The notes below the pieces were generated by a model that did no database searches, was not told the origin of the DNA, and saw only the letters and a program-made list of their open reading frames with translations. A DNA stretch of 64,000 nt from Cyathus striatus (lineage: Eukaryota > Basidiomycota > Agaricomycetes > Agaricales > Nidulariaceae): assembly GCA_025738555.1 (NCBI GenBank), contig JAOVFP010000014.1, positions 1,054,001 to 1,118,000 of the forward strand. The letters are read 5' to 3'. How positions within the stretch are numbered: the first letter of the stretch is position 1; each line of letters begins with the position of its first letter. Shown here piece after piece: positions 2,534 through 43,423 of this stretch. The position numbers and the translations under genes are program-made.

Positions 2534-5500
2534 ATGACTACAGAATTTGCTCCAAGTGTCGATATTCTCAATAATGCAAGCGGTCACGTAAATATGCAAA
2601 ATGTAAATGTTACTGTTGTAGGACGAGATATGAACAATGTGAATATTATTGGAGGTGGAGGGAATAACATTCAAGCAAAGCTTAGTCTTCTTAAGCCAGT
2701 GTCTCATGAAGGACATTATGTTCCAAATTGCATGGAAGGAACAAGAAAGGAATTATTTGAAAAGATTTATAGCTGGCTAAATGACCTTGGTATGTCTAAT
2801 TAATAACTTATGCAAAATATATTTAAACTGGCTTCATATTAGATGAATCAACACCCAATATATTTTGGATTACTGGATATCCAGGGACTGGGAAGTCAGC
2901 AGTTGCTTCTACTTTGGTTTCCAAGCTTTCTCAGTCCGAAAGACTCATTGGCTATCACTTCTTTAAAAGAGATGATGGATTCCTTAGTGATCCCTGCACT
3001 GTGTGGCGCACCACAGCTGCTACTATAGCCTCCACACATATGGCTATTGCTGAAGTAATGGCAATAAATCTGGATAATATTTTTAGAATTCAAGATATTA
3101 AATGGCACTTTGAAAATCTTATTTGTATGAGCTTCCAGCAACATCTGAATAAACTTCAAAATCCAGTTATGGTTATTGATGCACTGGATGAATGCAAACA
3201 ATCTGCTGACATGCATATTTTCATTAACACTTTATATTCTTGGTCAAAATTTCCAAAGAATTGTAAACTCATAATCACAAGTAGACCTGGCTACAAGCCA
3301 GTAAAGCTTGACAATGCTGAGTTATGCATTGACTATGAATTGGAAATTGGATTTCATGCAGAATCAGAAACTAACAGTGATATTATGTGTTACCTCAGAC
3401 ACAAATTTGAAGAAAAATATGACTGGATGAAGTGGAAACCAAGTGAACAAGACTTGTGTAAGATAGCACATAAGGCAGCAGGATTGTTTATTTATGCGTC
3501 TACTGTTGCAGAATTTGTTAATTCAAATGAACACAGCATGTTACCTCCCCAAAAAAAGCTTAAAAGGGTGCTAGAAAACCAAAAAGACAGTACAGTAACA
3601 GGTATTGATAACTTATACATGCAAATTTTGAGAAGTTCTTTTGGAAACTGGAGTGAAGCGGAGAAAATAATGGTGCATAATGTTATTGCCATTATAACCT
3701 TGGCAAAAATTCCTTTAGATATAAATGATATACAGTACTTCATTGATGAAAGTGGAGATGATGATCTTAATGATGATATTCAAATAATCCTTAAATGCTT
3801 ATCACCTGTCTTATCTACTCATCAGGGAAAAGTGACTACCAGACATTTATCATTTGTGGAATTCTTAATGGAGAGATGTCAAATAAAGCAGTATAAAATC
3901 AACAAAAACATTTCCACAATTAAATTAGCAACCAGAATATATCAAATTCTAAATAGCAAGTTGAAGTTCAATATATGCAACCTGGAATCATCATACAACA
4001 GAAATGAAGATTTAGATGATCTACCTGAAAGACTTCAGCAATGTGTACCAAATTATTTACAGTATTGCTGCATGTACTGGCTTCTATATGAAATGGATAT
4101 TTCAACAACTAAAAACAGAACAGAAGTGGAACAGCACTTCATTACTTTTTTGCATGACAAATTTTTGTTCTGGTTGGAAGTTATGAGCTTATTAAGTGAA
4201 ATTCCTAGGTCTTTGGGTCAACTAAAAGCATTATTAAACAGCTCTCAAATTGTAAGTAGCTCCAATATTATATTTTAACACAGACTAAAGATAATGTGCA
4301 GAAAGAAATGAAAGTAGAAGAGTTTATTAATGATGCTGTTGAGTTTCTAATGCATTTCTACATTCCAATCACTACAAGTGCACCACATATATATATCTCT
4401 GCACTACCATTTGCACCTGAAACATCAGTTATTCGCAATCAATATCAAGATCAATTTAAAAACACTATTTACAGATTGGGAAGCAAAGATCAGGACTGGA
4501 AATACAAAGGAATAAAAGTTTATCACCATACTTCATATGTAAACCATGCTGTATTTTCCCATTGTGGAAATCAAATTCTTGTAGGATTGGGAAGCAATAT
4601 GATTGGTATATGTGATATAATAACTGGTAAAATTAATGCTGGTTCACTCAAGTATCATAGACATATCACATCTTTAGCATTTTCTCCAGATGGAAAGCAA
4701 GTGGTATCTGGCTCAGATGATGAAATGGTTAGAATATGGAGTGTGGAGAGTGGTACACTTGTGGCTGGTCCATTTGAAGGTCATACAGCTTCAGTCACAT
4801 TTGTAGTGTTTTCACCAGATGGAAAGCAAGTGGCATCTGGGTCATTTGATGACACTGTGAGAATATGGGATGTGGAGGGTGGTGCAATTGCTACTAGTCC
4901 ATTTGAGGGTCATAGAGATGGAGTCACATCTGTAGCATTTTCTTTTGATGGAAAGCAAGTGGTATCTAGTTCTTATGACCAAAGTGTGATAGTATAGAAT
5001 GTGGAGAGTGGCACAATTGCTGCTGGTCCATTTGAAGGACATACAGAGATTGTCACATGTGCCAAATTTTCTCCAGATGGAAAGTATGTTGTGTCTGGAT
5101 CAGAAGATGAAACTGTGCAAATATGGGATGTAGAGACTGGCACAATTGCAGCTGGTCCATTTGAAGGTCATACAGATTTTGTCACATCTGTAGCATTTTC
5201 TCCTGATGGAAAGCATGTTGTATCTGGTTCAAATGACATGACTACAAGAATATGGGATGTGAAGAGTGGTACAGTTTCTACAGATTCATCTACAGGTCAT
5301 ACAGATAGAGTTGAATCTGTGGTATTTTCCCCAGATGGAAAAAAAGTAGTATCAGGTTCATTTGATAAAACAGTGAGAATATGGGATGCAGAGAATGGTA
5401 CAATTGCAGCTGGTCCATTTGAAGATCATACAGCTGAGATTACATCAGTAGCATTTTCTCCAGATGGAAAGCAAGTGGTATCTGGCTCACATGATGAAAC

Positions 5501-6637
5501 TGTGGGAATCTGGGATGTGGAGACTGGTGAAATTGCAGCTGGTCCATTTGAAGGTCATACAGCTGCAGTCTCATCTGTAAAATTTTCTCCAGATGGAAAA
5601 TATGTAGTATCTGGCTCATTTGACAACACTGTGAGAATATGGAATGTAGAAAGTGGCACAATTGCTTCAGGTCCATTTAAAGGCCATACAAATATGATCA
5701 CTTCTGTTGCTTATTCTCCTGATGGAAAGAAAGTGGTGTCTGGGTCATTTGACAAAACAGTGAGAATATGGAATGTGGAAACTGGAACAATGGCTGCTGG
5801 TCCATTTGAAGGTTATACAAGTACTGTCAGATCTGTGGCATATTCTCCAAATGGAATGCAAGTAGTATCTGGCTCAGCTGATAAAACTGTGAGAATATGG
5901 GATGCAAAGAGTGGTACTGGTTTATCTGCAGGTCATACATATAGGGTTACATCAGTTGCATTTTCTCCAGATGGAAAGACAGTGGTATTTGGCTCACATG
6001 ATAATACTTTGAGAATATAGGATGTGAAGAGTGGCGCAGTTGCAGCTGGTCCATTTAATGGTCATACAGATTGTGTCACATCTGTAGCATTTTCTCCAGA
6101 TGGAAAGCAAGTGGTATCTGGTTCATGTGACAAAACTGTGAGAATATGGGATGTCAAGAGTGGCACAGTTGCCACTGATTCATTTGAATGTGAAATTAAT
6201 TTTACTTCATGTGTGGCATCTTTTATGGATAGAAAGCAAGTAGCATCTGACATCAAAAACTCACAATTAAGGTAGGTAATATATATATCTAAGCTTAAAT
6301 TCATTTTTATAACAGATTTTAGAACCTCACAGTTGACATCTGGTATCTCATTTTATTTTCACATCAACACACATATCTTGTTCTAATTATTTTTGATTCA
6401 GCACATTTAAAGAAGTTGCTCTTGCTAGGTGGATCATCTATATATTCATTCTGTCATCAAGATGGATGGGTTAAGGATAAGTATGGACATTTACTTTTCT
6501 GGGTCCCTGACTATTTAAGATCCACATTATGTGACTTTGATACTATTGTCATCATAGGTAAAACTACTGAATGCAGATTAAGTCTCTCAAGATTTTGCTA
6601 TGGGTCTGACTGGGTAAGCTGTGTTCATACTAAATAG
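2534..6637 (+). pseudogene. NACHT-WD40 NLR (STAND NTPase), copy 1, with two in-frame amber stops
   Basis: Fungal NLR-type signalling NTPase of the kind involved in non-self recognition. Exon 1 (2534-2789) encodes an Asn/Val/Gly-rich N-terminus. An intron at 2790-2842 joins it to the NACHT exon, with Walker A GYPGTGKSA (Lys about 103) and Walker B VIDALDE (Asp about 198). A second intron is best placed at 4252-4301 (50 nt). The WD40 part has a degenerate first unit, about 12 clear 43-residue units and a degenerate last one, which would fit two seven-blade propellers. TAG stops interrupt it at 4995-4997 and 6018-6020, each where the other units have Trp (TGG). After one or two introns (donor near 6272) a terminal exon at about 6403-6637 carries the DGWVKDKYGHLLFWVP-type tail typical of these proteins, so the gene is otherwise full length. 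Without readthrough it would end inside the third WD unit. Confidence 0.85.
4650..6185 (+). repeat. 129-bp WD40 tandem array of NLR 1
   Basis: About 12 tandem units of 129 bp (43 codons), each carrying the core [12 protein letters not shown], a TVRIWD block and a GTIAAGPFEGHT linker. Units are alike at DNA level, including silent positions, while residues just after GHT and at the GS(x)D(x)T positions vary. This is the high-internal-conservation pattern known for fungal HET-type WD40 proteins whose repeats shuffle and evolve in concert. Confidence 0.9.
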
Positions 6638-16614: not shown

Positions 16615-19600
16615 GGGACCAGCAGTAATTGTGCCACTCTCCACATCCCATATTCTCACAGTTTTGTCAAATGAGTCAGATACCACTTGCATTTCATCTG
16701 GAGAATATGCTACAGATGTGATCCAATTAGTATGACCTTCAAATAGACCAGCAGTAATTGTGCCACTCTCCACATCCCAGATTCTCACAGTGTTGTCATA
16801 TGAGCCAGATACCACTTGCTTTTGATCTGGAGAATATGCTACAGATGTGACCAAATCTGTATGACCTTTGATACGCTAGTAAAATAAAATGACGTACTTT
16901 AAATTTTCGATTTTCTCGTTCCGAATTTACGGAACTTCCACCTGAGTGCATGAGTAGGACACAGCGGGGAGGGGCTGAGTTCCCACGCTGCCTCCCATAA
17001 CTCATCAAGGGATTAAAAACAAATAAAACTATATAAAAAACACAAAAACTCCGCATCAGTATGGTTTAAAACAAATTAAACAAATACATACCTCTTTAAT
17101 TCATAAAACCAATGTCATTTTGCAGTTGCTAGTATAACAGAAATCCCACTCTTCATTAAGACAAGCCCCCAGAGTCATAGACCAACCAAGAATGCGCGCA
17201 GAGTTGAAGACAGCCAAACCCTTAGAACCAGCCCAGAACACGAGAATATGAGCAAAGCTATGCAGACAATGCATTAGCTAAGCACGGAATGATGCCGATA
17301 GACCACGCGCAACCCATGCGCAGATCACGAAGAAGAGAAAGATAGCGGGGCGAGTACGCGACGCAGCGATGGCGTTTTGTTGCGATACTGACACGCCACG
17401 CGCATTTGATGATATAAGCAACGCCCGAAATGGTAATAGATCGACGCGCCACCCATACGGGCACCCGTCACGACATGGACACGTGTGCGCACGCGCATGC
17501 AATTGGCTGCAGTAACAACTGGGCTAGAACAACGGAGAAACCTAGGAATAAATTAGTAATTAGTATAGACCAAAGTAGTGACTAGCTATGTCTGTAAATG
17601 TATATAGATGAGCAAGGGGGAATGAAACGACAGGAACTGCCAGGCATTCTTCCCCCCACAGATAGGGTGGTATACAGACGAGAATCAGAATTAGTTACGA
17701 GACGTTTTGACACTGAATTACGTACCGAGTTTGCTGAATTGAAACCTGAATACCTTGAATTTTGAATACCTTGACGTGTTCTAAGAATAAAACCAAGTTA
17801 AACTGATCTATAAATAACTTGTTCTATATTTGAAATTGAAATCATTGCGCCCCTCGAACTTACTGAATCTACACCTCGGGATTTAAGTTTATTATTATAT
17901 TTGGGATTTTACATTCTAAGTATTTAAGTACTACTTAAAACTCGTCACGTGACTCAACACCTTCAAATGGGCCAGCAGTAATTGTGCCACTCTCCACATC
18001 CCAGATTCTCACAGTTCTGTCAGATGAGCCAGATACCACTTGTTTTCCATCAGGAAAATATGCTACAGATGTGACCTGAGCATTATAAAATTTGAATGGA
18101 CCAGCAATAATTTTACTAGTTATTATATCCCATATACCAATTATATCATTTTAGAATTTCATTACCACAATATGAAAATGCTACACTGGTAACTGCAGAT
18201 GTGTGGTGGTAAACCCTTACTCCTTTGTACATTCAGTCACACTCTCTGCCCCCCAATCTGAAAATTGTGTTTTTAAATTGATCTTGATATTGATTACAAA
18301 TAACTGATTTTTCAGATGAAAATGGTAGTGCAGATATATATGTGGTGCACTGGTTGTAATTGGAACATAGAATTGCATTAGAAACTCAACAGCATTATTA
18401 ATAAACTCTTTTACTTTCTTTTCATTCTGTACATTGTGTTTAGTTGTATCTAGTAAATTCCAAAATATGATTTTGAGTATACTTACAGTCTGACAAATGT
18501 ATAGCATTGCTTTGAGTTGACCCAAGGTCCTTGGAATTAGATTCAATAAACTCATAACTTCCAGCCAGTACAAAAATTTATTGTGCAAAAAAGTTATCAA
18601 TTCTTGTTCCACTTCAATTCTATTTTCATGTGTTGGGATATGCATTTTATGTAAAGGCCAGTATATGCAACAATACTATAAATAATTTGGTGCACATTGC
18701 TGAAGTCTTTCAAGTAGGTCATTTACATTCTCTTTTTTGTTGTATGATGATTCCAAGTTGCATATGTTGAACTTCAATTTACTATTTAGAATTTGATATA
18801 TTCTGGTTGCTAATTTTATTGTGGAAATGTTTTTGTTAATTTTATACTGCTTTATTTGACATCTTTCCATTATGAATTCCACAAATGATAAATGTCTGGT
18901 AGTTACTTTTCCCTGTTGAGTAGACAATACAGGCAATAAGCATTTCAGAATTATTTTACTGTATATCATTTATATCTAATGGAATTTTTGCCAGGATTAT
19001 CATGGCAATAACATTATGCACCATTATTTTCTCTGTTTCACTCTAGTTTCCAAAATAATTTCTTAAAATTTGCATGTACAAGTTGTCAATACCAGCTACT
19101 GTACTGTCTTCTTGATTTTCTAGCACCCTTTTAAGTTTCCTTTGGGGAAATAACATATTGTATTCATTTGAATTAACAAATTCTACAATAGTAGAGGCAT
19201 AAATGAACAATCCAGTAGCTTTATGTGCTATTGTATACAAGTCTTGCTCACCTGGTTTCCACTCCATCTAGTCATATTTTTCTTCAAACTTGTGTTTGAG
19301 ATAATGCATTATATCACTGTTAGTTTTTGATTCTGCATGAAAACCAATTTCCAATTCATAGTCAATGCATAACTCAGCATCTGCAAGCTTTTTTGGCTTG
19401 TAGCCAGGTCTACTTATAATTATGAGTTTACAATTTTTTGGAAATTTTGACCAAGAAAGTAAAGTATTGATGAAAATATGCATGTTGGCAGATTGTTTGC
19501 ATTCATCCAGTGCATAAATAATCATAACTGGATTTTTATGTTTATTCAGATGTTGCTGGAAACTCATACAAATAAAATTTTCAAAGTGCCATTTAATATC

Positions 19601-19985
19601 ATGAATTCTAAAATTGTTATCAAGATTTATTGCCATCTCTTCAGCAATAGCTGGATGCTTGAAGGCCATAGCAGCAGCTGTGGTGTGCCACACAGTGCAG
19701 GGATCACTAAGAAATATATCATCTCTTTTGAAAAAGTGATAACCAATAAGTCTTTGTAATAGCTTAGAAACCAAATTAGAAGCAATTGCTGACTTTCCAG
19801 TCCCTGGATATCCAGTAATCCACAATATATTTGGTATTGATTCATCTAATATGAAGCCAGTTTAAATATATTTTTGTAAATTGTTAATTAGGCAGACATA
19901 CCAAAGTCATTGAGCCAGTTAAAAATCTTTGCAAATAATTCCCTTCTTGTTCCTTCCATGCAATTTGGAACAAATGTTGTCAATG
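16615..19985 (-). pseudogene. NACHT-WD40 NLR copy 2, truncated and interrupted
   Basis: Inverted paralogue of the NLR at 2.5-6.6 kb. Reading leftwards it begins inside the equivalent of exon 1 (VPNCMEGTRRELF, near 19,980), keeps the same first intron, then the NACHT exon with intact Walker A (GYPGTGKSA), but Walker B Asp is replaced by Tyr (IIYALDE). TAG stops occur at 19,268-19,270 and 19,043-19,045 (both Trp in copy 1) and at 18,676-18,678 (Gln in copy 1). A deletion of about 50 nt lies near 18,975. After the intron near 18,490 the WD40 part is frameshifted, carries one unit (about 17,960-18,090), is cut by a 1.09 kb insertion, resumes for two units at 16,640-16,868, and is lost at about 16,615. 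It has no promoter or N-terminal exon and is clearly non-functional. Confidence 0.9.
16869..17958. mobile_element. 1.09-kb insertion in NLR 2 with 5-bp target duplication
   Basis: WD40 coding sequence stops at ATGACCTT (16,868) and resumes at ACCTTCAAATGG (17,959); ACCTT is present on both sides (16,864-16,868 and 17,959-17,963), so the insert is 16,869-17,958. It begins TGATACGCTAGT and ends GTCACGTGACTCAAC. It is rich in CpG, unlike the DNA around it, and has no convincing ORF. A 5 bp duplication and this size would suit a solo LTR, but no TG...CA ends are obvious, so the class is open. Confidence 0.75.
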
Positions 19986-22786: not shown

Positions 22787-24440
22787 CTATGGCTCCTCAA
22801 GCCCAGCTGCAACAACACTACGATAAGGAAGGAGGATAAGAGGGGAGAAGGAGAAAAGGAGGTACATAATGTGGACGCCGAGGAGAAAAGATTGAATCAA
22901 AAACATAGGTACACGGAATATATCTTCAAGCCTCCCACTCCCTTGACTCTCCCTGCCTTCGATACCAAGCCTAACGACCCACTCCGCCCACAACGTCCAG
23001 GCGAAAGATGCAAGTGACTATGAGCGTACCTGCGCTGCGAAGACGTATGCGAGCCATAGAGCATTTGAAGTAATCAAGCTAGAGTTAACACTTCAGCTTC
23101 ATGGGTATTCAATTTACATGAGAGAAGAATAACAGATGAGCAATGAAGAGAATACGAGGGGAAGAAAGCCAGCAGAAGAGAGGAAGGGAAGGAGCGAAAA
23201 ACGGCGGAGAGGATGAAGAAGGCATGGGAGGAACGGGAAGTTCATTCGGCAAACGCGAATGCCATGGGAACGACGACAAGCACTGCCAAACCCAGTACTG
23301 CCAGCTCCATGGCTACGACCAGGCTTAGCGACCACAATTGCCACTGTCCCCATTTCGTAGACGCTCTCCAGTCCAAAAACACCACCTGGACCAAAAACTG
23401 GAAACGAGAAGAAGAGCTGACATACCCTTTCTCATCCTCCCTTCCTAGAACCGTTCTGACCTGGGTTCGAAGTTCCCTTCCAGCTGGTTGCTCAACGCGC
23501 ATCGTGTCGACGGGCACATTTTGCGCAGCTAGCTTATGGGTAAGGTTAACAGCTGGGTTCATGGTGGATGAGCTGGAGGCTGGAGAGGTGGCTAGTTAGC
23601 GAACGAAAGGGGAGTAGGGAAGGAGAACGGAATCACGAGCAGAACAACGGGTCATGAAGAACGAGAATAGAGGAGGATTGCGCAGTGAGTATGTACGTGA
23701 GATTGATGGGTCTATGAACTGGAGTAAGTGAACGAAAGCGGAGGAGGACGGAGAACAGAGGCACAAGCAGAAGAAAGGCGAACGACACAAGACGTGGTAA
23801 ACTTACTGCTTGACCTTGACTTCGCTCATCTTCCCTACAACTGCACTCATTCCCTTCGCAGTTGCGCCAAACAAGCGCTCGACGTTCCTGGGGCGACCAC
23901 CTATCTCCTATCGCGCGACAAGACATACCCGGAGCTGTCAGCTTCCAGATTCTCTCGATGTGGTTGTGTGGGTGCGTTTTGAGATGAGGTGGTGTGCTGT
24001 TGGGAAGGGATTAGTGATGTGAAGACAAAGGAAGACAGGTAGTAGGTGATAAGAAAGAAACGAAAAGATGGAAGGCGGAGAAGTGAGAGATACAGGTGGG
24101 AGACGACGAGCCAACAGGTAGATTGAATGGGGAAGGAATCGAGGCAGGGGCAGTGAGAGAAAAGTTGAAGGGAAGACGTTGAAGAAGGGGGGGTGAAATG
24201 AATGGGACGACGAAGAAGGAAAGCGAAGAAACGATAGCATACCTTGCGTATGCACTCGCACATGCGTATTCGCCAGCCACCTCAACGTCTTCGAAGATGC
24301 ATATCCCAGAGACAACATCCCCCCACATCCCTCCTCACACCTGGTCTCCCACCCGCAAACCGCACGGCGTTGCCATTGCACTATCGCCTATAATAATAAG
24401 GATGAGAGACTGCCGTAAAAAGATTAGTAGCACATACTAG
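22787..24440 (-). repeat. Dispersed repeat R, copy 2
   Basis: Inverted copy of 1-1.85 kb. On the minus strand it shows the same order: exon-like block ending in GTAAGTTTACC near 23,800, the block at 23,450-23,560, the CCATGGAGCTGGCAGTACTGG block near 23,310, and the block at 22,800-23,020. The last block of copy 1 is missing. It forms the left part of the tandem duplication unit A. Confidence 0.6.
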
Positions 24441-24767
24441 ATAATCGTCCAGTGGCTTGTGATAAGGAGGCGTGATACCATGGTGTAAACTACTGACTGA
24501 GACCCGGACGAGAAATGACTTCGTTGGAGGTTTCGCAAGACGCTGTGAGCGTAAATGTAGTATGTATTATTTTAAGATAGTAAGAAAATGGTTTTATAAG
24601 AGGTCAGAACGCCATAAAGACTGTACGGTGTCGAGGCCCAGTGGTACTCAAGCGCATTGCTCAAGAGAGCAAGCAGTCCGTACTCCAAAGACACCGTTCA
24701 AAGCCTTAGCAAAACACACACAAACACTCATCTTACCAGAAGCCACGTGCACCGCACGTCTATCAAT

Positions 24768-24841
24768 GGGTCGATGGCATAGTTGGCTATCGCATCTGTC
24801 TAACACACAGAAGGTCCTCAGTTCGAGCCTGGGTCAACTTA
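24768..24841 (+). tRNA. tRNA-Val(AAC)-like sequence, probably degenerate
   Basis: 74 nt with D arm, anticodon stem TCTGT/ACAGA, loop CTAACAC (anticodon AAC) and a good T arm (CTCAG TTCGAGC CTGGG). The acceptor stem is weak: positions 1 and 2 pair only as G.T and position 5 is a C/A mismatch. No intron. The sister copy at 28,845 has a better acceptor stem, so this one may be a pseudo-tRNA. Confidence 0.6.
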
Positions 24842-24849
24842 TTCAGACA

Positions 24850-28470: not shown

Positions 28471-28844
28471 AGGAATAAGGGACAGTTGTAAGCAGAACAC
28501 GAGACATACTGTAATGCAGAAGCTGACTCGTTGATTATTGTAGCGGTGTTGGAAGGAAGGAGTGAGCGGCAGTTCTTCGTGACCCTAGCCAATACAAATC
28601 GAGAATTGAACTTGGCTGGAGAGTTAACGTTGGGAGAGACTTTTACAGACATTAATAGAACTTTAACAAAGTTGCTCTGAAGATAAACAATGTAACTTCA
28701 AGATAGCAGCAACACTTTAAAAGAACGCCATGGAGGCTGCAAGAAAGAGAAGGGACTCGAGCAAGACTCGAGAGCGGTTGCCTTAGCAAAATACAACCAA
28801 ACACGCCTCTTACCAAAAGACACGTGCGCCGAACGCTGGTTAAT

Positions 28845-28918
28845 GGGCCGATGGCGTGGTTGGTTATCGCATCTGTCTAACACACAGAAGGTCCTCAGTT
28901 CGAGCCCGGGTCAGCCCA
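28845..28918 (+). tRNA. tRNA-Val(AAC)
   Basis: 74 nt cloverleaf: acceptor GGGCCGA/TCAGCCC with one C/A mismatch, D arm GCGT...TCGC, anticodon stem TCTGT/ACAGA with loop CTAACAC (anticodon AAC, valine), T arm CTCAG TTCGAGC CCGGG, discriminator A. The B box AGTTCGAGCC is intact. No intron is present. About 4.08 kb after its weaker twin at 24,768, at the same place in the duplicated unit. Confidence 0.75.
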
Positions 28919-29324
28919 TTTGAGCAGTCGAAAAATTCTTTTACCACTTGATTCTCGTATGTACAAGTACTGTAAGTTGGTGATGATTTCCCTCCACACT
29001 ATTAAGTATATGATTTTTGCATGCTCACAATAAAGGTCATACAAAATAGCAAAACCAAAAGACAGATGGGCTCAGTGGTATCATTGATTCCTTCATCATA
29101 TTCATGCACATGATCTGCCTTCTGAAAATATGATGCTGGACATAGTAAAGACAAAATGAAAATGAAAATCTTTATTGATTCATTCCTCTCGAGCCTAGTG
29201 GAGCCCCACAGTGAAGCAATGATTCTAGTAGGATTATGTGTACACACAACAATATTACACTCCACTTTTAAATCTTAGATTAGAGGTCAATGGTGTTACA
29301 CAGAGCTACGAGACAGCAACAACC

Positions 29325-35786: not shown

Positions 35787-35795
35787 TCGGAGCAC
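35787..35795. repeat. Target-site duplication, left (9 bp)
   Basis: TCGGAGCAC, identical to 43,415-43,423, directly outside the left terminal inverted repeat. Confidence 0.9.
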
Positions 35796-36009
35796 TAGAC
35801 CGGTAGCCGGTCGGTATCGTGGTAAACCACGTGATATGAACGATTGAATCGTGTCGATATACCGACCGGTCCAACTCGTAAGATTTTGGCAGGCAGTCCC
35901 TTACGTCCCTCAAACCTTCCTTTTTGGGATTCTTGGATGCTCTCGTGCATCGTGTCAAGCTCCCTCACTCTGTCCCCTTGTCTGTTCCATCCTCCTCCCC
36001 TCCTCCCTC
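35796..36009 (+). repeat. Left terminal inverted repeat (214 bp)
   Basis: Begins TAGACCGGTAGCCGGT. It aligns without gaps to the reverse complement of 43,201-43,414; the few differences are mostly C/T or G/A, with some clustered near 35,942-35,960. It contains its own internal palindromes: GTGGTAAACCAC, and CCGGTCGGTATCG facing CGATATACCGACCGG about 35 bp further in. Confidence 0.95.
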
Positions 36010-37958
36010 CCCTCCTCCCTCTCCTCCTCCCATCTTATGTACTTTATAATTACTATGCCTTTCTACAATTTAACATTCTCATGAGTCTACACAACATTTC
36101 ACTGTCCGAAATTCGCGAGCTATCAAGTTTAGAAGATGCAAACCATCTAGTTGAACAGCTTATTCCGAGCGAGTGGAGACTTCCCAATGACTTTTGGAGT
36201 GACTATCACAAGAAATATGTTTTACTTGGACTCAAGGCTTGTCTTGCTATGTTTGTCATTATGGAAGGAAGGATTATACCTTGGAAGTTTCAGTTGGAGG
36301 CAACACTTGCTCTATTGGCTGGGAAAGACTCTTTGGTGGATGTGGGAACAGGGTATGGCAAAACCATCTGCTTAATCCTTCCATCTTTGCTGTTTCCAGA
36401 CAAAATGGCATTGGTTATTACTCCCCTCAAGTGACTTCAAGCCCTGCAGCTATTGGAATTTGAGAAATATCAAGTAAAAGCAGTCTCCATTAATGAAGAC
36501 ACTCCAAAAAATGATGCACTTTGGAAAGCAAGTATTGGGCTTGTGATGCATTGTGTGTACTCAAGAGCTTTCACATCATTTCATAGGACATTGAGAAGGG
36601 TCACCACACCCTGCTACTTGTGCAACCTGAACAACTCTCCATGCACAAAGGTCATTGGACTCAGCTCTCCCAGCTTATGAGGAAACCACAGTTTATCTCA
36701 CAAATTAAGCATCTTCATGTTGATGAAGCACACTCTATCTATACAGTTGGCCTTCCACACTTTGAATTACCAGCATTTTGCCCATCATGGGGTGAACTTG
36801 GAGAGCTTTGTGTTTGGCTCCCTAGCTCTACTCCAGCCCAGGCTCTCTCCAGAACTCAGCCAGATCACATTAAGAATTCTATCATGAAAACCCTCCATTT
36901 TAAGCCTTCAAAGCTCTCTTCCATTACACTCTCAAGCAATCACCCAAATATCTCATATGCGATACATGAAATTGTTAATTCTCTTTCTGATTACTGAAAT
37001 CTTAACTTCCTCATACCTGATCCATACCCTGCTGACTTTATACTTCGCAAAGCAATCATTTTTCATGACAACATTCTATCAACACAAGATGCTAGTGATT
37101 ATATGAACAGACTCCTTCCCTTGGACCTTCAACATAAAGGCATTGTGTGACATTATCACAGTGGCATGTCTACAGAATACTTGAAGGTTGTCTTTGAAGA
37201 CTTTGCTAGCCCAAGTGGAATCTGCCAAGTCTTACATGCAACAGAAGGAGCTTCTACTGTATGGTAACATAATCATTCATTATTTTTACTGAACAACTTT
37301 ACAGGGTGTAGATGTATGCAATATTTCAGTAGTTGTGCAGTATGGCACTCCACATGATATCCTAACTTGCTTGCAGAGAGGTGGTTGTTGTGGGTGTGAT
37401 GGCACTACAGAATCAATATTTCTTTTATTATACAAGCCTTGGGCAAAGGAAGTTGACATTTCTGCTGCAGAATCGGTCAACTATCTCAATGAAACTGACA
37501 GAACAGATCCAGATAGGCCAATCATTGCAAGACTAACAGAAAAATCAACAAAGAAGGAGTGAACTGGAATTGCAATTCTGAACATTATACAAAGTTCACA
37601 TCAATGTTGCATTAGGTTACTGTATAATAAAGCAAATGGAGATGAATCTTCAGATGGTTATTGAACTCTTTTTGTTTCACATACATTACTGACAGCACTT
37701 TAATAGCACTATCATTTACAGGAAGATATTGCTGCAACAGTCCAGTGCACAGCTCAGAAGATCAAAATTTTTCATATGATCATTTCTTTCCCAATAAATT
37801 GCTCTATACCAATCCTGACAGCAAACAAGTGTACTATGGTGATTGTGATGATCCAAATAGGTGAGAAGTACAACCTCATATGGACAGTGATAACAAGAGA
37901 AAGCTTGTTCTGAGCTCATTCCATCCAGTTCCTCAGCGTGAATCTTTAACTTCATGCA

Positions 37959-39475
37959 TCAGGAAAAATCCTGTCCACTAAAAAAGCCAATTTCAGGGAA
38001 CTTAAGTGAAAAAGAGCAGAAATAAGGTCAAAAAAGGGAAATAAGTACTATTAGTGATAATAGTAAGGTCCCAACCTTATTCCGCCCTTTTTTAGTTCAG
38101 ATAAGGACCAATAAGCTCATTTAAAGGGTAATATGCCCACATAAACAAAACCCAGATGCTTATAAGCACACATTGCTTTTCACTCCAATTTCATTCAGTG
38201 CAGTATATAATAGGCTTTAGTTAATTATATATTGTTATTGTATTACAATGAAAGTGGTTACATTAATATATACATTAAATACAACAACCCCCTCAAGATA
38301 TACCACATACACCCCACAACTCCAGCTACATATACCCCCCATCCCACCAGCACTCACTCAATTATAACATGTACACCCCCACAACATCCAGCTACACATA
38401 TCCCCCATATCCACCCCCTTTCCATCACCCAGCAGCACCACACACTCAATGATAGCAACTATAACATGATGAGCACACATATAACAAGATAACTCAAATA
38501 CATACCAGGGAACAAAGACCATGAATAAGAGTTTAAGTGGAGGATGAGCCCAGAAGTTGGAAGGCATGTGAGACCAGTTGTACAACAAGTTGAGATGCTG
38601 AGATGCAGAAGCTTTTGCAGTGAGAGACTGGTGTAAGTTATCAAAGCAGACTCAAGGACAGAGATTGAAGTTGGATCTTAAAGTAGAAAGCCAGCATTTT
38701 ACTAGATGAGTGGACACAAGTAACGAGCAGGGGAAGGAGGGGGGGAAGGAGGGAGGGGAAGGAAGGAACTTAGGAAAGGTGGGGGAATTGAAACAAGCAT
38801 GACAACCATCAACATGTCAAATTCAACATGCATGTGCTCTATAATTAAGGCCAAACAAAGTGAAGTGATCACATGCTAACTTTCTTGCTTGCCATGACCA
38901 CTTCACAGTGTCACTTTATTGCTTGCTATTTGAACTTAGATGTTTAAACCTTTGTATAGTTCTTACACTTAATTTGTATGTAACTTATTTTCCCTCCAAT
39001 TAACAATGATGTAGGATAAAGTGTGTGTTCCCCACCATGATATTGGTTCTTAGCTACAATTTATACTAAAAAGTATTGTACATGTGCTGCCATTGAATGT
39101 AATATATATAGCACATCTCTGAAATGGATTTGCTATGAGAACAGCTGGCATCTTACACAAAAATTGCATAATGTCTTAATTTCATGATGGTTAATTCCTG
39201 TAAAATTTGTCATTCTCACAGTAGGTAATATAAGTACAAGTAAGTTTGCTTTGCCATTGTACCAAACTTATAAACACTTATCATGCTCACAATAGGAAAT
39301 ATAAGTACAAGTAAGTATGCTTTACTGTTGTACCAAACTTATGAACACTTATTGTGCCTCACAATAGGCAATATAAGTAAAATTAAGTTGAATTACCCGA
39401 AATTAGTAACATTTAGACATGGGTATACCTTAAATTTACTAATATCACTAATTTAGCTAATGGGGTTTTTCCTGA
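37959..39475. mobile_element. Nested 1.5-kb element inside the helicase gene
   Basis: Helicase reading is lost after ...LTSCI at 37,958 and resumes at 39,476. The intervening DNA starts TCAGGAAAAATCC and ends with GGGGTTTTTCCTGA, an inverted repeat of at least 10 bp. It contains no gene; it holds AT-rich sequence, CA/CCCCA-rich low complexity (38,280-38,450), a GGGGAAGGA-rich patch (38,725-38,765) and a 72 bp tandem repeat. No clear target duplication is left. It looks like a non-autonomous DNA transposon. Confidence 0.7.
39214..39387 (+). repeat. 72-bp tandem repeat, about 2.4 units
   Basis: Units start at 39,214, 39,286 and 39,358 with CTCACA(G/A)TAGG and contain AATATAAGTACAAGTAAG and TGTACCAAACTTAT. 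Located near the right end of the nested element. Confidence 0.85.
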
Positions 39476-40158
39476 TGTGGCTTATTGAATGGCAACAACA
39501 AACATGGTATTGTGATTCACTCCATAATGTTCAATCACCTTCTTTCATACTCAGTAACCAAGAAATTAAGACACTCACATGAATTCACCCTGATGACATA
39601 ACTTCTTCACAGTCTATTGGCATGTTGTTGGAAAAGTCTGAGGAATGGGTACATCAGTGGGTGAGTGGTATATATCAGTGCATCTGCAACTTTGATGAAG
39701 AAGTGAAAAGAATGAATGACAAGGTCACTCAGGAGAAGAAACAATGACAGAAGCAAGCAAAAATTGATGAGAAGCAGCAGCAATATGAAGTGAACAAGAA
39801 GTACTTCACACAAGAATCCCAGACACGAGATAAGGAAATATCAGGTCAGTTTGAGAATATCAGTGCAGACAAAGCTCAAGAGGAGTATCACAAGATGTGC
39901 ACAAATCCTGTTGTGAAGACACCAGTACAATCTATACCAGCAGTACATCAAGCTGCATTTCAGCAAGAAACTGAAGCACATATGCAAGAGGTAAAGGATC
40001 GTCTTGGAAAACTAAACCAAGAACAGCTTAGGGAGCTTTATCAGCATGTACACAATTAATTTTAAGTTATACATATACCATTACTATAGTACTGGCATGT
40101 AATTGTAGAAGTTTAAGAATATATTCCTAGCACTCTCCTGAAAGGCTCAAAATATCTA

Positions 40159-43100
40159 TCATCTCAGAGGCATTTCCCAAGGTATCTTTATCAACTGTGA
40201 AGTCTGTGTATTGTCCAGCTGTGAACTTTTGAATTTTGAATTAAAGGTATTTAGTGTCGAAGACTTGAGCTTTCTTGATCCCTCCTCCAGAAGATCAGGT
40301 ACCAGAGTAACTGTCACATTGTCCTAGCGCTTTTTTTAAAATACCTGAAATGATTCCTCCTTTGCCTTAGCTGCAATGCACCAAACCAAACTATTGGTGT
40401 TGACTTGTGAATGATATCGATTATGGTGAGAGAGCTCAGTGACTTCAGCAATCTTCTTTTTAATCTTACTGAGCTCATTGATTGATGCTGATATGTTCCC
40501 CAACATATCCCATGTAGTCTCAAGACCTTTTGCACCAATTAGCTCCTTCATATGATAATCAGACATTGAAGAAATGCACTTGAACTAAACATACCTTTAC
40601 ATTTCCAACTGTGTGTTCCATGTTGAGATCCAATGCCATCCAATGTCCATTCAGTCCTGAGAGATTTATGAGATGTGAATCTCACATGATATCACTGTAT
40701 AATATTTCATAAAAATAGACAAGGGTACTAGTATGATGAGAACTCATGCAAATATGGGAGTCCAAAAATATTTCAGGTTAATCACAAGATGCAAAATTTC
40801 AGTACAGTAATTATTTCCTCCAGCAGCTCGGAATGTCATTGCCAGCTGTGGAAGAATGTCTTCAATTCGTCCAAAGTCTCCATCTTGTGCTGCAGTAATG
40901 ACTTCAAGAAGTAAGAGCAAGTCTCATGTTAGAAGCCGAATATTTTGATTTGTTTTATCATCTGCAGGTTTTGGATGGGTTGAGCGATTTGGCAGAGGTA
41001 TATTGAAGCTCTTTTTGCTAGAGCGTGCTTTTGCTGACCCTGATTTCTTTGGTACTGTATCATCAGCACTAGCTTTGTCATCTTTGTCAGTTGGATTTGG
41101 AATAGGTGTAGCAAAATCATTTAGAAAATCAGCCACTTTTTGAAGAAGATCCTCTGGTGATGGATTTTTACTCGCAAATGAAGTTAATGTAGCCCCTTCA
41201 TTACACAAGCACAGTATTTGAAGTCCATTGAGGACAAGACCTTCTAGTATCTGCATTAAGCTTGCAATGAGCATATGATAGTCTGGTTTTTCACCAGAGA
41301 GTCTGGACTTTTCTAATAGAGCAAAAAAGTATTGTAGTGATCCCTTTTGCCCTGTGGTGCCACGATGCACATGAAGTAAGGCCCATGCGAGATTCAGACA
41401 CAAGTGGAAAAGGCCAATGCCTATCTGAAATACAAGCCGCCAGTGATAGGCATCAATATCAGCAGCGTGAAGAATCTGGCCTGAGCAGATGCGTGAATTG
41501 GTAAGTTGATCATTAATTGTGACTATTACAAACTTTGAAAGTGCCTCAGAAAGCTTTTCAAGTAATATCAAATAGATTTCATCATGGTATGCAAGATTCC
41601 TTTGAGTTGATGCCTCTTCTGTTGTTGATATATGGAGGGGACAAAATTCAGTCACTCAGCAGTCCATCAAGGGCACATGGCACAGTTTAAACTGTAGAGA
41701 AGGGTGTGTCAAGCACCAGTTAAATGGCTTGCAGTGCTTTGCGAGAATTTTGATGATGTGAATTTGTAGTTGATGAAAGAACAACTGATACTGCTCAGTT
41801 GTAGGTACCAGGTCCAATTCGTATCTGAGACCATGAATACTGGCATCATGCATTCGAGCTAGTATGGGTGCAAGCAGCATATCCTCTTGGGATGCATAGC
41901 TAAGTTTGTAGAGCATTCCTAATGTTCCAGATGTCACTTTGTTGGGGGTGTGTAATCCCCGTTGCTCAATGAAGCCAGAGGTACTGATGTTCACATTATC
42001 ATAACAGAAGATATGAGGTCCATTGGCAATAGACTTTGCAATATTCATTGTACTGTTTCCTAGCATTTTAATGCTGTCTAATACTGACTGATAACATGGA
42101 GAAAGTCCGCAATAATGGACTGCGTCAATAGTCTGACGAGATGCACCTGTCGCCCAGAGAAAGATGCCAAATTCGCCTGCAAATGTAAAGCACTTGTTGG
42201 AATGTTGGTATAGCAATTGTTGAAGCACAATATTGCAAAGCTGCTCACCACTTGGATGTAAAAAAACACGCCATTTTCAATAGCAAGGGAGACTCACATG
42301 TTCTGGGGACTTAGAAGTATTAAATTTCTCCTGGTGTTCACTCTGCACAGCTGAACAAAGAATATTAAGCGTGAATGGTGCTTCAGATTTGAAATCTGTT
42401 GTATTCCGGCTGTTAATGTACTCCGGGTCAATATCAGCAAGTCCCTTCCTGTGAGTGAGACGGTGAAGTTCATCCATTTCATCTGCAATAATTTCCATAA
42501 TCACTTTATTACCAGATCCATCCTGAAGCCAAGTCTGAAGTTTTTGTAGCCCTTTGTTTGAGTCTGCAATGGTGTCCAAGACATCGAAGAGTTTTTTTCC
42601 ACTTTCTTCATAGATACATGTTCTATACGAGCTATATTTGTCGTTAGCTTCATCGAGAATACACTGGAGTAGGTCCAGAGGTCCCAGGGAGTCTTCTTTT
42701 AAAATTGCTAATGTGGCATTTACTTTTTCAGTGGTACTCTTTCGTGGCGCCCTTGTTCTTGGTGAATTAGATGACATTACTTCAGAAGGATTGCTATACA
42801 CATCTTCTAGTATAAAGTACAGAGATATAAGGTGAACAAACAAATTCTCATCGTTCCCACTAGCCAGTGAAGATGGCCCCCCTGCCTTATCCTTTCTGCT
42901 CATTCCACTTCCACTTCCACATTCACATCCTCCTCCATGTCCTCCATTCCTTTTCTTTCGTTCCATAGTGTGGTTCGAGTTCCTTCCATTACCAGTGAGG
43001 TTGATGTGGAACCTTGGTATAAACTGAGACTGTCCAGGAGGATTGCTGGAGGGCTGAATGTTGCAAGGTGGTGTAATGTCGTTGAGCACTACTTGCTGCT

Positions 43101-43170
43101 CATATGAGTAACGAGGCCTTTTGGATGGCCTGGTATCTTGTGATGAAGACACATCTTGGTCGGAGGGCAT
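40159..43170 (-). pseudogene. DUF6589-family protein, candidate transposase, with in-frame TGA stops
   Basis: Start chosen at ATG 43,170 (MPSDQDVSSSQ); an upstream ATG at 43,263 lies in the terminal repeat. Exon 1 is 42,298-43,170 and a 57 nt intron (42,241-42,297) leads to the core. The core holds FGIFLWATGASRQTID, then a CYDNVNISTSGFIEQRG block near 42,000 and a NDQLTNSRICSGQIL block near 41,510, followed by FHLCLNLAWALLHVHRGT and GSLQYFFALLEKSRL. The C-terminal part has DGDFGRIEDILP, GLNGHWMALDLNMEH and, after further introns, LGNISASINELS and DLLEEGSRKLKSSTLNTFNS, ending near 40,159. TGA stops at 41,656, 40,924 and 40,682 each fit CGA (Arg) decay. The family is widespread in Agaricomycetes; its biochemical role is not established to my knowledge. 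The conserved Asp residues in YDN and NDQ could be RNase H-like catalytic residues (speculative). Confidence 0.8.
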
Positions 43171-43200
43171 AGGAGTCCAGGCGCTGCAGCCGAGGGAGGA

Positions 43201-43414
43201 GAGGGAGGAGGGGAGGAGGATGGAACAGACGAGGGGACGGAGTGAGGGAGCTCGACGCGACACGTGAGAGCATCCAAGAATCCCAAAAAGGAAGGTTTGA
43301 GGGACGTAAGGGACTGCCTGCCAAAATCTTACGAGTTGGACCGGTCAGTATATCGACATGATTCAATCGTTCATATCACGTGGTTTACCACGATACCAAC
43401 CGGCTACCGGTCTA
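43201..43414 (-). repeat. Right terminal inverted repeat (214 bp)
   Basis: Reverse complement of 35,796-36,009 without gaps. It overlaps the upstream region of the DUF6589 gene, so it probably supplies its promoter. Confidence 0.95.
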
Positions 43415-43423
43415 TCGGAGCAC
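43415..43423. repeat. Target-site duplication, right (9 bp)
   Basis: TCGGAGCAC, identical to 35,787-35,795. Confidence 0.9.

Follow-up and report, generated by a model that had tools for sequence, protein, structure and literature searches.

What kind of element encloses a DUF6589 gene and a RecQ-like helicase gene, facing each other, between long inverted repeats? The window, by which we mean the whole 64,000-nucleotide stretch of Cyathus striatus DNA analyzed here, contains such a locus. A transposon copy of 7,619 bp spans positions 35796-43414, exactly the boundaries drawn by the first-pass annotation. Its terminal inverted repeats, at 35796..36015 (left, + strand, starting TAGACCGG) and 43195..43414 (right, - strand), are 220 bp long; the exact 214-bp repeats reported earlier were an error, as aligning left with right gave 208 of 220 identical positions, 12 mismatches, and no gaps. 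All 12 mismatches are transitions, the majority in a CpG/TpG or CpG/CpA context, as would be expected from decay of methylated cytosines. The 9-bp target site duplication TCGGAGCAC is, as previously claimed, perfect, comparison of the flanks placing it at 35787..35795 and 43415..43423. A chance repeat is ruled out by the repeat length (220 bp, 95%), the perfect 9-bp flanking repeat, and recurrence in the genome, where a search with the left end returned at least 40 matches, a lower bound with loci listed for 30 of them.

Two genes converge from beside the repeats, as had been proposed. The helicase gene, at 36033..40011 on the + strand, carries a DEAD domain (Pfam, E 2.4e-6) and matches the helicase of the relative L062, while the DUF6589 gene occupies 40133..42795 on the - strand, an extent supported by homology, its frame running on upstream toward the right repeat. 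PF20231 (DUF6589) was found by Pfam in two of the four scanned - strand pieces of the element; one hit, at E 2e-26, passes the curated cut-off, and the other, at E 1.6e-4, falls short of it. The DUF6589 and helicase genes of the first-pass annotation are thus both real by Pfam. Both genes are broken. Compared with the L062 pieces, in matches that overlap slightly where adjacent, stops number 3, 2, and 0 in the DUF6589 gene (60-74% identity) and 1, 4, 4, 2, and 1 in the helicase gene; with stops in both genes, the window copy is very probably a dead, decayed element. The helicase gene is also split by a nested insertion at about 37957..39477, some 1,521 bp long, with short inverted ends CATCAGGAAAAA, three 71-bp direct repeats, and, at its junction, a TG repeat of 2 bp; it is missing from the relative L061, continuous across the site. 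The first-pass annotation overlooked this insertion.

Perfect 9-bp duplications flank 13 of the 15 two-ended copies examined, across three end types, a count from which C14:2460801, which has lost its right end, and end pairs without retrieved DNA are left out. Four long copies of the TAGACCGG type have them, namely the window copy, C13 (L062, 6,070 bp), C16, and C8, each with DUF6589 and helicase matches that are convergent inside it by coordinates. Seven short copies of 0.8-1.3 kb (C11, C23, C1, C10, C6, C5, and C14) also have perfect 9-bp duplications; they are gene-less, with ends related to those of the long copies. In a short copy in C2 the duplication is ambiguous, agreeing at 8 of 9 bases. 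The other two end types are represented by L063 (6,078 bp, ends CAGGCTCC, 9-bp duplication TATATTTCC) and by C1:219058-224746 (ends TAGTCTCGG, 9-bp duplication AGACTAGAC), so both genes occur in elements with three unrelated end types, and the duplicated 9 bp vary in sequence among copies. A near-identical twin of the C1 element, G000:C12:2969325-2975054 (97% in DUF6589, 98% in the helicase), lacks a 9-bp duplication, just GTT being common to both flanks, which a rearrangement could explain.

Two relatives have empty sites, and none was found in this genome for the window copy, whose flanks matched themselves alone. L063 sits in a tandem array, other units of which continue across the target with no gap (92.5% over 200 bases in one unit). 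For L062, a stretch of L021 that carries the target once aligns across the junction with the two L062 flanks put together, the left one over only some 15 bases. The joined flanks of L059, set against L030 and L027, left a 7-base gap at the junction and were not counted. Judging from the flanks of L059, L062, and L049, some copies seem to lie within terminal repeats that belong to related elements, perhaps through nested insertion near the ends.

The pairing of the two genes recurs across the genome (107 Mb in 24 contigs). The PF20231 search, with 102 of 201 candidates scored, gave at least 105 matches that merged into 93 places, and the 251 helicase matches, 68, 90, and 93 from three queries, merged into 143 places. 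When the nearest helicase alone was taken, a match no more than 10 kb away was present for 82 of the 93 DUF6589 places, convergent at 81 of them, on the same strand at one, and divergent at none; the median gap of the convergent pairs was 1.9 kb. Random placement, using approximate sizes for most contigs, produced a mean of 0.65 and a maximum of 5 convergent pairs in 1000 trials, compared with the 81 observed. No helicase match lay within 10 kb of the other 11 DUF6589 places, and 61 of the 143 helicase places, which may be host genes, decayed elements, or fragments, were not picked as nearest for any DUF6589 place.

The pairs also respect subfamily boundaries. With DUF6589 rows taken at 50% identity or more and helicase rows at no less than 43%, 43%, and 50% for the three queries, A was paired with A at 12 places, C with C at 20, other DUF6589 with B at 29, and other with other at 21, leaving 11 without a helicase (3 C, 8 other), in a table that left out a number of short fragments and defined "other" DUF6589 by exclusion. 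None of the A or C DUF6589 among the 93 places was paired with a helicase of another group. DUF6589 and the RecQ-like helicase are inherited as one unit, and the convergence at 81 of 93 places, together with the lack of A and C crossing, points to a joint role kept for a long time. Each long element with both ends examined holds the pair between matching repeats, and all except one have 9-bp duplications, so the convergent co-occurrence within such repeats anticipated by the first-pass annotation is borne out in this genome.

Structure prediction gives the DUF6589 protein a putative function. Two models (pLDDT 85.4 and 84.7) align best with the folds of Hermes, P element, RAG1, Transib, ISCth4, or Tn5, the closest being Hermes and P element, whose rows share 6-8% identity with DUF6589. 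Ranks 1-17 and 1-30 for the two models are DDE recombinases throughout, a ranking among the fold families in the comparison lists, those outside them not being counted as excluded. Foldseek alone gave no significant match to a DUF6589 model, and a sequence search of the PDB returned Glypican-3 alone (E 0.64-0.9), judged to be chance. Across 13 divergent DUF6589 proteins, two Asp are invariant and a Glu is present in 12, these being residues 253, 417, and 649 in P0002, and the YDN and [N/G]D aspartates fall within or directly after strands. DUF6589 is thus predicted to have the RNase H-like fold and triad of a DDE transposase, in agreement with the fold previously suggested for it. Taken with the convergent pairing, the repeats with 9-bp duplications, and the empty sites, the predicted fold supports the proposal that DUF6589 is probably the transposase of the element.

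In the literature searched, outside which most subscription papers fall, the name DUF6589 was not found and PF20231 appeared in one unrelated physics paper only; within that literature, its assignment as the transposase of such elements is apparently new. In three protein searches, the hosts named among the matches listed (120 of 237, 120 of 129, and 120 of 291) were Agaricomycetes, many listed rows carrying no name. One DUF6589 protein of Ganoderma boninense, P0345, was probably misannotated, its public name being "Type 1 capsular polysaccharide biosynthesis protein J (CapJ)".

The helicase is best seen in L064, where a 669-aa open frame is convergent with an open 667-aa DUF6589 frame. Its best matches among solved structures are RECQ5 (E 3.3e-12), RecQ, and BLM, and DEAD and Helicase_C domains were found by Pfam in L062, L063, and L064. 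Judged by this open relative, the window-type helicase is RecQ-like.

Several known systems share some of these features. Helitrons have neither terminal inverted repeats nor a target duplication and are ruled out by the 220-bp repeats and the 9-bp duplication. hAT (Hermes) and P elements make 8-bp duplications and have no helicase gene, whereas the window element has a 9-bp duplication and a helicase. The duplications of Kolobok elements are TTAA, in place of which TCGGAGCAC and other 9-bp sequences were found here, so KolobokH was rejected. AcademH is reportedly an Academ lineage with a helicase, attributed to Kojima in 2020. KolobokH resembles the window element as a fungal DNA transposon encoding a RecQ helicase (PMC9587614), but its RecQ is encoded downstream, after the transposase domain, whereas that of the window element is convergent, on the other strand. 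For Academ, PMC10045372 gives 9- or 10-bp duplications for AcademH and 3 or 4 for AcademX, a difference that its authors tie to the encoded helicase and nuclease. AcademH occurs at low copy in Basidiomycota, Ascomycota, and Mucoromycota (PMC10799480). Of the fungal Academ copies, 1,938 in all, 1,568 have recognizable protein domains (DEAD and recQ_fam among them) and are often annotated as host genes (PMC6416283).

The window element carries a DEAD domain, joined by Helicase_C in L062, L063, and L064, and its duplication is 9 bp long, as in the 13 perfect copies of 15 (one other having 8 of 9 bases and one none); the predicted DUF6589 fold and its conserved acidic residues fit a DDD/E transposase, the Foldseek search alone being not significant. 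As a DNA transposon of Basidiomycota with a helicase gene and 9-bp duplications, it matches what PMC10799480 and PMC10045372 describe, and is best filed as AcademH-type on the grounds of helicase and duplication length. The first-pass annotation had taken it for an unknown kind of element; this part of its reading is not supported, as DNA transposons that carry a helicase and make 9-10-bp duplications are already published as AcademH, the class itself being described (PMC10045372, PMC10799480, and PMC6416283). We consider it quite probable that the locus is a dead AcademH-type DNA transposon in which DUF6589 is the DDE transposase and the RecQ-like helicase an accessory enzyme of its own. DUF6589 would bind the long terminal inverted repeats, cut the element ends, and join them to staggered target cuts 9 bp apart, which would leave the 9-bp duplications. 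The helicase, encoded on the other strand and passed on together with the transposase, would belong to the element and most likely unwind or process its ends, or else assist repair or replication-coupled movement.

Two other readings deserve weighing. DUF6589 might found a eukaryotic DDE superfamily of its own, of the hAT, P, and RAG fold class, independent of Academ and permanently paired with a RecQ acquired separately before Agaricomycetes diversified. Hermes and P element as closest folds, the named hosts being Agaricomycetes only among the matches listed, and the uptake of RecQ by another superfamily in KolobokH (PMC9587614) would agree with this, but a helicase with 9-10-bp duplications in fungi is what is published for AcademH (PMC10799480 and PMC10045372), and recQ domains are stated for fungal Academ copies (PMC6416283), which makes a separate superfamily unlikely. 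Alternatively, the helicase could be a passenger without a part in transposition, DUF6589 alone moving the element. The gene-less copies with related ends and 9-bp duplications imply that the helicase gene is not required in cis, and 11 of the 93 DUF6589 places have no helicase match; yet supply in trans accounts for the short copies, and decay or detection limits for the 11, whereas a passenger would sit poorly with 81 convergent pairs and subfamilies A and C that never cross, so we regard this as very improbable. Mutator-like elements, too, typically have long terminal repeats and make 9-bp duplications, but capture of both genes by one of these is scarcely credible, no Mutator transposase domain being found by Pfam in the scanned pieces of the window, L062, L063, and L064, and both genes occurring with three unrelated end types.

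A Pfam family of "function unknown" thereby becomes a probable transposase, for which candidates for the catalytic residues can be named. Most DUF6589 places in this genome, with their convergent RecQ-like neighbors, belong to one mobile system and are not host genes, and mushroom gene annotation and RecQ counts would need correcting. With open-frame pairs such as L064, the need of such an element for a helicase can be tested directly.

In viral contigs, 16 stretches fitted a pattern and none was confirmed, and a bacterial-type promoter scan was uninformative for a fungus. Elsewhere in the window, inverted arms of about 2 kb with 83% identity lie at 2713-4781 and 17959-19977, and weaker inverted matches are found outside them, at about 3-1303 and 22839-24009, a pattern as in a large inverted duplication. 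Open frames at 2827-4278 and 4998-6020 look like a fungal NLR-type gene, having an NPHP3_N/NACHT-like domain and numerous, highly repetitive WD40 repeats. Two tRNA-Val (aac) genes, at 24767-24842 and 28844-28919, stand about 4 kb apart in partly repeated surroundings.
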